29,807 bases of DNA from a virus. The notes under the pieces are model-generated. The model saw only the letters and a program-made list of their open reading frames with translations, searched no databases and was not told the origin of the DNA. The translations under genes and the position numbers were made by a program. The stretch covers positions 1 through 29,807 of IMG/VR virus record IMGVR_UViG_3300017772_000073; one strand, 5' to 3'. Each line of letters opens with the position of its first letter. The first letter of the stretch is position 1. Positions 21,407-29,807 of this stretch are shown here, one piece after another.

Positions 21407-21884
21407 CGTTTTTTTGTTTTAAATAATTATTAATGCTATTGGTTGACATATAAGGAATTAAAATTTCTTTTTTTTGTTTATTTTTTTTCTTCTTTTCATT
21501 CTTATCATTCTTGTTACTGGTCGTTTGCTGGTCGCTCGCTGGTCGCTTTGCGGTCACTTCGTTGGTCGTTACTTGATACTTTTCATAGTTAACTACTTGT
21601 ATCTTAGTTCCTTGTGAACTTGATTTGATGGTCACTTCGTTGGTCGTTTTTAGCTTAGTTAGTGCAGTTCTCACTTGTCTTATTGTTAGACCTGTTTCAT
21701 TTGCAAGTATCTCTCTACTTGTTAAATGTTCACCAATTTGTATAAGTTCGCCTTTATAGTTTTTTGATTTGTGATTAGCTTTTAAAAGTATGTGTAAAAA
21801 TAACCTTGTTACATTTATGTCATCATACCACTCCCATTCTAAAAGCTGTCTATGGATTTTTATCCATCCTTGTATTTGCTTCAT
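21393..21884 (-). CDS. Winged-helix replication initiator-like protein
   Basis: 163 residues. Residues about 1-95 form a DnaD-like or replisome-organiser winged helix: GWIKIHRQLLEWEWYDDINV, LFLHILLKANH, LTSREILANETGLTIRQVRTAL. The motif TTNEVT occurs twice (about residues 79 and 105) because a 19-bp direct repeat is coded there. The rest is a Lys/Asn-rich linker and a short conserved-looking C-terminus. The gene contains seven GGTCR repeats (21519-21646), probably its own binding sites, like lambda O. Overlaps the helicase gene by 14 bases, so loading is the expected function. Start ATG 21884 has a tandem AAACTATG leader. Confidence 0.7.
   Translation of the reverse strand: MKQIQGWIKIHRQLLEWEWYDDINVTRLFLHILLKANHKSKNYKGELIQIGEHLTSREILANETGLTIRQVRTALTKLKTTNEVTIKSSSQGTKIQVVNYEKYQVTTNEVTAKRPASDQQTTSNKNDKNEKKKKNKQKKEILIPYMSTNSINNYLKQKNDDSK
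21455..21500. other. A/T-rich tract beside the iterons, possible unwinding element
   Basis: Nearly pure A/T with a long pyrimidine-rich strand (T8, then GTTTA, then T8). It encodes the Lys/Asn-rich linker of the initiator-like protein. Position next to the iterons is like the A/T-rich half of lambdoid origins. Low complexity may simply reflect the coded linker. Confidence 0.4.
21519..21568. repeat. Iteron-like array, 11-bp phased
   Basis: On the plus strand GGTCG/GGTCA starts at 21519, 21530, 21541, 21552 and 21564, so steps are 11, 11, 11 and 12 bases. On the minus strand the unit reads A[AG]CGACCAGC[AG] with small changes. The array is inside the initiator-like gene, and a very A/T-rich tract (about 21455-21500) lies beside it. 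This is the layout of an origin with initiator sites and an unwinding region. Confidence 0.65.
21630..21648. repeat. Second part of the iteron array (19-bp direct repeat)
   Basis: GGTCACTTCGTTGGTCGTT here is identical to 21552-21570, 78 bases away (26 codons, in frame). It holds two further GGTCR units spaced by 12 bases, making seven in total. Confidence 0.7.
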
Positions 21885-22740: not shown

Positions 22741-23073
22741 TTAAAAGGGTAAATCACCTTCTTCTTCAACTGCTACTTCTTCTTTCTGTTTGCTGTTATC
22801 AGCTTTGAATACTTTCCAAGCATCTAAAGAAGTGAAGTATTTACCTTGCCATTCATTAGTTTTTACATTAAAGTCAACATCAACTACATCACCTTTAGAG
22901 TTGTATTGTAAAAATTTATCTACTTTTTCTTCTCCGAATACATCAAAGCAATATAGATTATTGTATTCATCATCTGTTTTAACTACAAAAGATGTTTTTT
23001 TCCATTGCTTACCAGCTTTTGTTGTTCCTGTTTGAGTTTGTAAAATGTTCTCAATTTTTCCTGTTACTTTCAT
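22741..23073 (-). CDS. SSB-like protein (DUF3127-type OB-fold)
   Basis: 110 residues. MKVTGKIENILQTQTG at the start, KAGKQWKKTSFVVKTDDEY and a YFTSLDAWKVFK segment match the DUF3127/SSB-like pattern. An acidic tail ends in EEEGDLPF, the typical SSB C-terminal tip that recruits partners. It is next to exonuclease and helicase genes, supporting a replication or recombination role. Binding of single-stranded DNA is inferred. The ORF starts at ATG 23073. Confidence 0.75.
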   Translation of the reverse strand: MKVTGKIENILQTQTGTTKAGKQWKKTSFVVKTDDEYNNLYCFDVFGEEKVDKFLQYNSKGDVVDVDFNVKTNEWQGKYFTSLDAWKVFKADNSKQKEEVAVEEEGDLPF

Positions 23074-28517: not shown

Positions 28518-29807
28518 TTATGTTGGTGTTGATGTTGATTTAGCTGTTACACTCATATTGTAAGATACTGCATTTGATTCAGAATAAGGTGCATCTCCTG
28601 TTCTATTTGTTCCGCTTGACATTCCCGAAGATAAACCACTTCCTGTTGCTCCTACTCCGTCAACTAAATCTGCTTGAGTCATATTTGCTGAAACTCCATT
28701 GTTTCCGCTTGTAGAAATTTCATCCAAAACAGTCCAATTTGAACCGTCAAATGATGAATTTACAGCTCCTAATCTCCACCAAGATACAGGTGTTACTGCA
28801 AAATTATTAAGGTCAAAAGGTTTGCCTTCATTATAAAGAGTTTTTACTTGTGCTGCTGATAAAGCTGAGCTAAAAATTGAACAGTTAGAAATTGAGCCGC
28901 CAAACTCAAATGAACCTAAAGTATTACTTTCGCCTAAAATAATATCAACAGTTTTATTTGCTATAGAAGATGGAATACTTGTAGAATTTGTATTATTTAA
29001 AACACCATCAATATATATTTTTAATGAATTTGAAGCGTCATAAACAGCAGTTAAATGATGCCAATTTCCATCATCAACTCTAATATTACTATCTACATAA
29101 AATATTGCATTGCTTTCATCCCAAACAATAAATTGAACAAAATTATTTGTTTGATAAGCATTTGACCATAAACTCCAACATCTATTAGAGCCAAAAGCAT
29201 CTTTAGAAATTACAACAGAATCTTGTTGAGTTGTTTGCTTTATCCAAACAGAAACAGAAAAAGAACCTGTTATTTGCAAGTTGGAAGGATTTCCAAAATT
29301 TATTCTATCTGAGCCAACAGCATCAAATTCTAAACTAAAACTATCATACGGTGCATTTATAATAAGGTCGGATTGCACAAGGTTTGCAGCAGTCATATTT
29401 GATGATGTGCCTGTGTTAGAATTACTTGAAGCATCTGGAATACTCCAATTAGAGCCATCAAAGGTTGCTGAAGCGTCTAATTCCCAAAAACCTTGTAAGT
29501 TGCTATAAGAAGCTATATTTGGTGGTGTACCGTAGTTATATAAAGATTCAACTGATTCTGTTCCTGTTGCGGGTAAACCAGTATCAAACAATGAAATATT
29601 ACTTAATTTACAAGTAAAAAATGCACTACTTGCACTTCCTCCAATATATAAATTATCATTATTTACTGCTAACCCTGTACCTCCAAGCGTTGAAGAATTA
29701 CTATATACCTCAACTCCGTTTGAGTATAATTTTAACGCACCAACAGCATCAGTTCCATCATATGTTAAAGCTATATTAAACCAATTACCACTTTGTAAAT
29801 TAGTTAT
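28518..29807 (-). CDS. LamG-domain tail fibre/adhesin, C-terminal part
   Basis: This is the C-terminal 388 residues of the 748-residue protein that starts at 1080. Bases 29685-29807 duplicate 1-123. It finishes the second LamG (to about residue 415) and adds a third at about 475-646. A linker module is present twice, near residues 426 and 662; each copy has an aromatic-rich start, FDGSNW, a D-S-rich stretch and NMT-A-LV. The tail after residue 715 is Ser/Thr/Gly-rich. A TTG codon at 29591 could be mistaken for a start, but the frame is open upstream and encodes the end of the second LamG. The product is probably an extended multi-domain fibre for host polysaccharide binding (inference). Confidence 0.82.
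   Translation of the reverse strand: MTNLQSGNWFNIALTYDGTDAVGALKLYSNGVEVYSNSSTLGGTGLAVNNDNLYIGGSASSAFFTCKLSNISLFDTGLPATGTESVESLYNYGTPPNIASYSNLQGFWELDASATFDGSNWSIPDASSNSNTGTSSNMTAANLVQSDLIINAPYDSFSLEFDAVGSDRINFGNPSNLQITGSFSVSVWIKQTTQQDSVVISKDAFGSNRCWSLWSNAYQTNNFVQFIVWDESNAIFYVDSNIRVDDGNWHHLTAVYDASNSLKIYIDGVLNNTNSTSIPSSIANKTVDIILGESNTLGSFEFGGSISNCSIFSSALSAAQVKTLYNEGKPFDLNNFAVTPVSWWRLGAVNSSFDGSNWTVLDEISTSGNNGVSANMTQADLVDGVGATGSGLSSGMSSGTNRTGDAPYSESNAVSYNMSVTAKSTSTPT
29685..29807. repeat. Terminal direct repeat, right copy
   Basis: Exact copy of bases 1-123. Removing one copy gives a 29,684-bp circle. A true short terminal repeat of the virion is possible but less likely, because the repeat sits within a fibre gene. 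Confidence 0.95.

Follow-up and report, generated by a model that had tools for sequence, protein, structure and literature searches.

Positions 21455 to 21648 of the phage genome studied here very probably constitute its theta-type replication origin, which lies inside the phage's own initiator gene. The window, that is, the whole stretch of DNA that was analysed, comprised 29,807 nucleotides (positions 1 to 29,807 of the IMG/VR virus record IMGVR_UViG_3300017772_000073). The features of the region are collected in Table 1. In the sequences compared, it was possible to observe directly the repeats, the selection acting on them at the DNA level, the lineage-specific forms of the iterons, the covariation between the main array and an upstream pair of units, the fixed spacing between the last iteron and a conserved word that we call W, and the conservation of W as DNA. 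The binding of the initiator, the melting of the duplex, the identity of the factor that reads W, the loading of the helicase, and the start of replication at this place are only inferred. Among the features by which an intragenic iteron origin is recognised, an array of short direct repeats in the initiator gene and an A/T-rich region next to the iterons are present.

Table 1: Features of the putative origin and of the replication module. Positions are those of the window.
Feature	Position	Strand	Evidence
DnaB-like helicase, RecA fold, 291 aa	20531–21406	−	phrog_18375 DNA primase/helicase, E 1.4e-24
Initiator gene, 163 aa	21393–21884	−	PHROG matches, AF2 model
T-rich flank past W (A-rich on the coding strand), easily melted	21455–21491		Nearest-neighbour (NN) stability among the lowest ~2.6% of window values
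Conserved DNA word W, AACAAGAATGATAAGAATGAAAAG	21492–21515	−	Codon invariance, initiator specificity, two frames, plasmid copy
Main iteron array, five 11-bp units, core GACC (GGTC on the + strand)	21516–21570	−	Repeats, 11-bp periodicity in the family, invariant cores
Upstream iteron pair, cores at 21630 and 21642	21630–21648	−	19-bp exact repeat, codon covariation
Single-strand DNA-binding protein, DUF3127, same replication module	22741–23073	−	PF11325, E 2.4e-23; phrog_4932

The Initiator Gene and the Replication Module

The best family match of the initiator was PHROG 2514, a DnaD-like helicase loader (E 2.5e-27). The O-like families phrog_345 and phrog_391 were also matched, and by tblastn the protein was related to the lambdoid O of HK620 and HK022 with E about 1e-6; on these grounds the homology to lambdoid O was accepted. 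The predicted layout consists of a winged helix at about residues 5–104, modelled by AF2 with a pLDDT of about 85–94 over residues 11–100, followed by a hydrophilic linker (residues 105–142), which is encoded by the iterons and W and is disordered in the prediction, and by a short C-terminal helix. When the winged-helix model was compared with known structures, it matched RepA_N initiators (4pt7, Z 8.9; 4pta, Z 7.8) and the Rep-DNA structure 5kbj (Z 8.2); generic winged helices, CRP among them, scored equally well. The DnaD-like and O-like matches and the winged-helix model qualify the product as a replication initiator that carries a DNA-binding domain, and they bear out the earlier sequence-only reading, which had placed the array inside the gene of a winged-helix initiator-like protein. 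As for the DnaB-like helicase gene, which is located downstream of the initiator gene, the Pfam DnaB_C match of its product was 8e-4, below the Pfam cut-off. It is likely the enzyme that is loaded at the origin, the loading being inferred.

The Iteron Array

Seven GGTCR units were located, at 21519, 21530, 21541, 21552, 21564, 21630, and 21642, each at the position previously claimed for it. Their successive steps are 11, 11, 11, 12, 66 (that is, 6 × 11), and 12 bp; the near-exact 11-base steps that had been proposed for the first five units agree with this measurement. The exact 19-bp repeat described at a distance of 78 bases was also recovered, since 21552–21570 is identical to 21630–21648. 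On the coding strand the units take the form CGACC or TGACC and fall in frames 1, 1, 1, 1, 0, 2, and 1, so that all three reading frames are used, in line with the claim that the units occur in different codon settings. The upstream pair is separated by 66 bp from the main array and encodes TTNEVT within the winged-helix domain. With six exact copies in 128 bp, TGGTC forms the joint densest cluster in the whole window among 5-mers with at least three G/C; AGCAG also reaches six, as a coding repeat of a gene at 6.6–6.8 kb. None of 100 first-order Markov simulations of the window reached six for G/C-containing 5-mers.

Selection on the Iterons at the DNA Level

In six close relatives, none of the 28 columns of the GACC cores was variable, against 11 of the 43 remaining columns of the linker (Fisher P 0.002), and the residues that changed in these relatives were T (to V, L, or A), V (to L, M, or K), and S (to T or N). 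The alignment of homologues had been put forward as a check of the origin, and its outcome was favourable: the cores are kept in 28/28 columns while the encoded residues vary.

The periodicity of the linker DNA was then compared, in 110 non-redundant homologues, with a synonymous null made of recodings of the same proteins, which is conservative because the repeated amino acids are retained. The identity at lag 11 was 0.536, compared to 0.401 under synonymous recoding, with a combined Z of 29.3 at lag 11 and of 21 at lag 22. An 11-bp period was detected (P ≤ 0.05) in 87/110 linkers, and in 4/110 and 5/110 of the winged-helix and C-terminal controls, respectively; in the same test HK620, ListA118, ctekg1, and several others lacked a significant 11-bp periodicity. 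These P values should be taken as indicative, because the homologues are related by descent.

The repeat unit differs by lineage, as exemplified by TGTCCAACGGA, ACGACACGAAA, and GGGCGAACAAA. The threonine codons of the upstream pair are ACC together with an ACC-type array and ACA together with an ACA-type array (9/0/0/7, Fisher P 9e-5), and the other threonine codons, used as control, had no link with the array type (P 0.57). The covariation between the pair and the array indicates that the two form one set of sites. Judged by these comparisons, the 11-bp repeat is maintained as DNA and not as coding sequence.

The A/T-Rich Flank and the Form of the Genome

A nearly pure A/T stretch next to the array had also been reported. 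The region between 21455 and 21512 is indeed A/T-rich, having 9 G/C in 58 positions and a duplex stability within the lowest ~2.6% of the window; the description as nearly pure holds only in part, and the tract is not extreme, as the window has many places that are less stable. Owing to these less stable places, A/T content by itself was dropped as an origin marker.

Positions 1–123 of the window are identical to 29685–29807. From this exact terminal direct repeat of 123 bp it follows that the record is circular and complete at 29,684 bp, which is the size that the sequence-only reading had assumed. GC skew across this circle was negative almost throughout, since almost all genes have the same orientation, and no switch was found at 21.5 kb, where a flip had been expected, or elsewhere. 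The skew is uninformative here and was rejected as an origin marker.

A Conserved Word Adjoining the Array

The most conserved part of the region, as far as the homologues compared indicate, is W, an element that had passed unnoticed in the first reading. It is a repeat of about 9 bp, AAGAATGAW, and directly adjoins the last iteron. Its codons were compared in 25 non-redundant homologues that had not been found by means of the word, whose winged-helix domains have a median identity of 33%. The lysine codons of W were AAG in 25/25, 25/25, and 24/25 genes, AAG being 27% of the lysine codons elsewhere in those 25 genes, and the asparagine codons were AAC, AAT, and AAT without exception (N1 AAC 25/25, N3 AAT 25/25). 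At conserved two-fold sites of the winged helix in the same genes, the majority codon reached a fraction of 0.68. Because NKNDKNEK was among the peptide search patterns, the presence of the peptide is biased; the choice of codons is not.

A search of IMG/VR with the exact 20-mer of W gave, among the matches listed, 79/80 in initiator linkers directly after the array and one unrelated. All 79 initiator matches listed are read as NKNDKN; one of the other two frames of the 20-mer contains stop codons, which accounts in part for this frame lock. When the 64 synonymous spellings of W were considered, a single one accounted for 61/80 of the matches listed, and nearly all the remaining spellings were, again among the matches listed, chance sites outside initiators. 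In a set of 64 homologues that had been gathered without using the word, W was distinct (at least 22 of 27 matches) in 35 and went beyond the synonymous null (P ≤ 0.05) in 32, about half of the set having no clear W. The average over 76 genes had a loose iteron consensus in 11-bp steps, with a phase fixed relative to W. The positions nearest the array were the most conserved and conservation dropped with distance past the first 20 positions of W; the first 10–20 positions are partly fixed by the way in which the genes of this average were selected.

Among sampled bacterial genomes of two phyla, W was present in 1/345 and 1/348, both of them already reached via an initiator locus, and the backwards control gave 0; W is therefore not a general chromosomal motif. 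No earlier description of W or of the peptide NKNDKN was found in the open literature searched, which did not cover key reviews, and prior notice is not excluded. Taken together, W is constrained as DNA and is a candidate unwinding or loading element; the constraint itself does not prove a role in unwinding.

W in a Second Reading Frame and outside Intact Initiator Genes

The 19-mer variant ACAAGAATGTAAAGAATTA had 22 matches, 20 of them in initiator genes. It is read as NKNVKNYKN in 3/20 and as QECKELK in 17/20, the latter including one gene cut by the end of its contig and two near-duplicates. The bases altered in the second-frame variant are those that would give stop codons there (GAT to GTA, TGA to TTA). 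Several of the second-frame genes have winged-helix relatives (60–66% identity) in which W is read in the first frame, and in the second-frame genes W keeps its distance from the last iteron. The idea that W is the plain code of a conserved peptide was rejected on the grounds of codon choice and of the switch in frame.

W was also found outside intact initiator genes. In plasmid pDMB13 of Bacillus safensis there are five 11-bp repeats together with W, and the array has stops in all three frames. This mobilizable plasmid of 6.6 kb (NZ_CP150834; locus L301, 1136–1230) has no initiator gene annotated nearby, and its array and W may be a captured phage origin, either a decoy or a helper-dependent replicon. 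Porphyromonas phage005b, a prophage-like record (locus L303, 1150–1232), has the array and W with remnant C-terminal coding sequence and without the N-terminal half of the initiator; they are located among structural genes, far from the phage's own, different initiator gene at 9.6 kb. Lactobacillus phage CL1 likewise keeps the array and W and has lost the N-terminal part of the initiator; it is a weak case of a non-coding copy, because in iLp1308 nearly identical DNA (99%) lies within an annotated gene.

A blastn search with the word alone recovered mainly initiators of Listeria, Lactobacillus, Bacillus, Anoxybacillus, Staphylococcus, Vibrio, and Shewanella phages and of phage-like plasmids. 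Separately, the record of Dulem virus 31 (PP511318), a genome of 35.8 kb with a replisome organiser and an exonuclease, is labelled Microviridae, which looks like a taxonomic mislabel.

Proposed Mechanism and Alternative Explanations

In the mechanism that we propose, the winged-helix domains of the initiator would bind the 11-bp iterons with one monomer per helical turn, all on a single face of the DNA, and the upstream pair, six turns away, would give a second contact. The assembly of the initiator may destabilise the adjoining A/T-rich DNA, where W (strand ATTCTT...ATTCTT) would be read as a sequence-specific unwinding or loading element, and the phage DnaB-like helicase would then enter at W. 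Since the iterons vary with the initiator and W is constant, the reader of W should be common to these phages; it might be a host factor, a shared surface of the loader, or some property that the initiators have conserved. With moderate confidence, we propose that the near-invariant W (AACAAGAATGATAAGAATGAAAAG and its second-frame variants), locked to single-turn 11-bp iterons, defines a class of intragenic origins that is widespread in phages of Bacteroidota, Bacillota, and Gammaproteobacteria, in which the iterons diversify with the initiator and a conserved machine, of the host or a shared loader, reads W in strand opening or helicase loading. This points to a single conserved factor that reads the same DNA in distant hosts, with the recognition of the iterons diversifying. 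One stretch of DNA would serve as gene and as origin, the DNA being retained across changes of reading frame. Most phage origins are unmapped, and an 11-bp array followed by W offers a sequence rule for candidate origins in many phages and phage-plasmids.

It has to be considered whether the DNA repeats could simply follow from linker peptides, TTNEVT and NKNDKNEKN, that are conserved for the sake of the protein. The almost constant reading of W as NKNDKN in initiator genes and the hydrophilic, disordered character of the linker would agree with this, but the synonymous positions of W are near invariant, the periodicity of the iterons goes beyond the synonymous null, a different frame reads the same word as QECKEL, and pDMB13 has a copy in which no frame stays open through the array; we find the explanation scarcely credible. 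That same plasmid copy, and the fact that W is locked to DNA iterons, make it highly improbable that W acts in the mRNA, as a signal for translation, stability, or frame, and not in the DNA, even though in every initiator gene W lies on the sense strand. It is common for initiators to repress their own genes, and the iterons sit in the initiator gene, so the array could be an autoregulatory operator and not an origin. Little weight can be given to this, however, as the sites are in the middle and at the end of the gene and not at its start, and the adjoining A/T-rich W and the origins annotated in homologous genes suit an origin; the roles of operator and origin may also coexist.

The remaining alternative, that W is a recombination junction at which the winged-helix/iteron half is swapped against the C-terminal half, with the array alone as the origin, draws on several mosaics and is nevertheless unlikely. 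In Staphylococcus SA7 and SAP33 the C-terminal halves are near-identical and the winged-helix/iteron halves differ, the switch being at or just past W; the same pattern, with the switch at the same place, is seen between Listeria A118 and PSU-VKH-LP040, and the frame-2 W is found on many winged-helix backgrounds. Against a mere junction stand the kept spacing between W and the last iteron, the highest conservation at the positions nearest the array (partly fixed by the selection of the set), and pDMB13, a small plasmid that retains the array and W and has no gene to recombine. Moreover, a functional conserved DNA would turn into a junction anyway.

Comparison with Known Origins

In the origin of lambda, iterons are followed by an A/T-rich tract within gene O, and this tract is needed for unwinding (PMC7466680). 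Our locus has the same arrangement inside the initiator gene, and together with the O homology this supports the lambda-like origin that had been suggested; the finer details of lambda are not shared. The lambda record has four annotated 18-bp iterons at 20–24 bp, whereas the steps here are of 11–12 bp, so that the strict lambda-type arrangement (18-bp iterons at a spacing of about two turns) is not fulfilled. Lambda also has no W-like word (best 15/27), while here W adjoins the array. Insofar as sequence features alone can tell, the locus works like the lambda origin and yet falls in a separate class, with single-turn 11-bp repeats and an extra conserved element.

The records of HK620 and Sf6 have a replication origin annotated at the matching place of the homologous initiator gene. 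Sf6 and ST64T, whose word has diverged, have the 11-bp period in common with our locus, whereas HK620 is without an 11-bp signal, and in P22-type phages, HK620, and Sf6 the word that follows the array resembles W only weakly (16/27, not above the null). The replisome organiser of TP901-1 and Tuc2009 is reported to bind direct repeats in its own gene, which have been demonstrated to be the origin (PMC8965321, citing Ostergaard 2001 and McGrath 1999); the TP901-1 gene has neither an 11-bp array nor W.

Precedents for the proposed reading of W are found outside phages. In plasmids RK2 (TrfA) and F (RepE), iterons stand beside a DUE of repeated 13-mers, and the winged-helix Rep binds single strand specifically (PMC4081077, PMC10797057). 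Those repeats are unrelated to ours, the origin is here inside the initiator gene, and there are no data on single-strand binding for this initiator. In B. subtilis, DnaD reads pairs of TnnT, short single-strand motifs at oriC (PMC10201434); likewise, a short repeated single-strand motif stands there beside double-strand sites, and the strand of W is also T-rich at 3-nt steps. DnaA-trios are read by DnaA, and the repeats of W are at 9 bp. A strict identity of W with the DnaD TnnT motif or with the DnaA-trio was rejected, as the 3-nt rhythm is interrupted in the GTA variants and the polarity of the trio is opposite. The plasmid DUE and DnaD cases serve by analogy as precedents and are not evidence of identity.

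An initiator from a metagenome (locus L027) carries the iteron GATGTCCAACG, almost identical to that of the P22-type phages Sf6 and ST64T. Its upstream pair is of the GACC type and does not match its own array, which may mark a recent exchange of the array.
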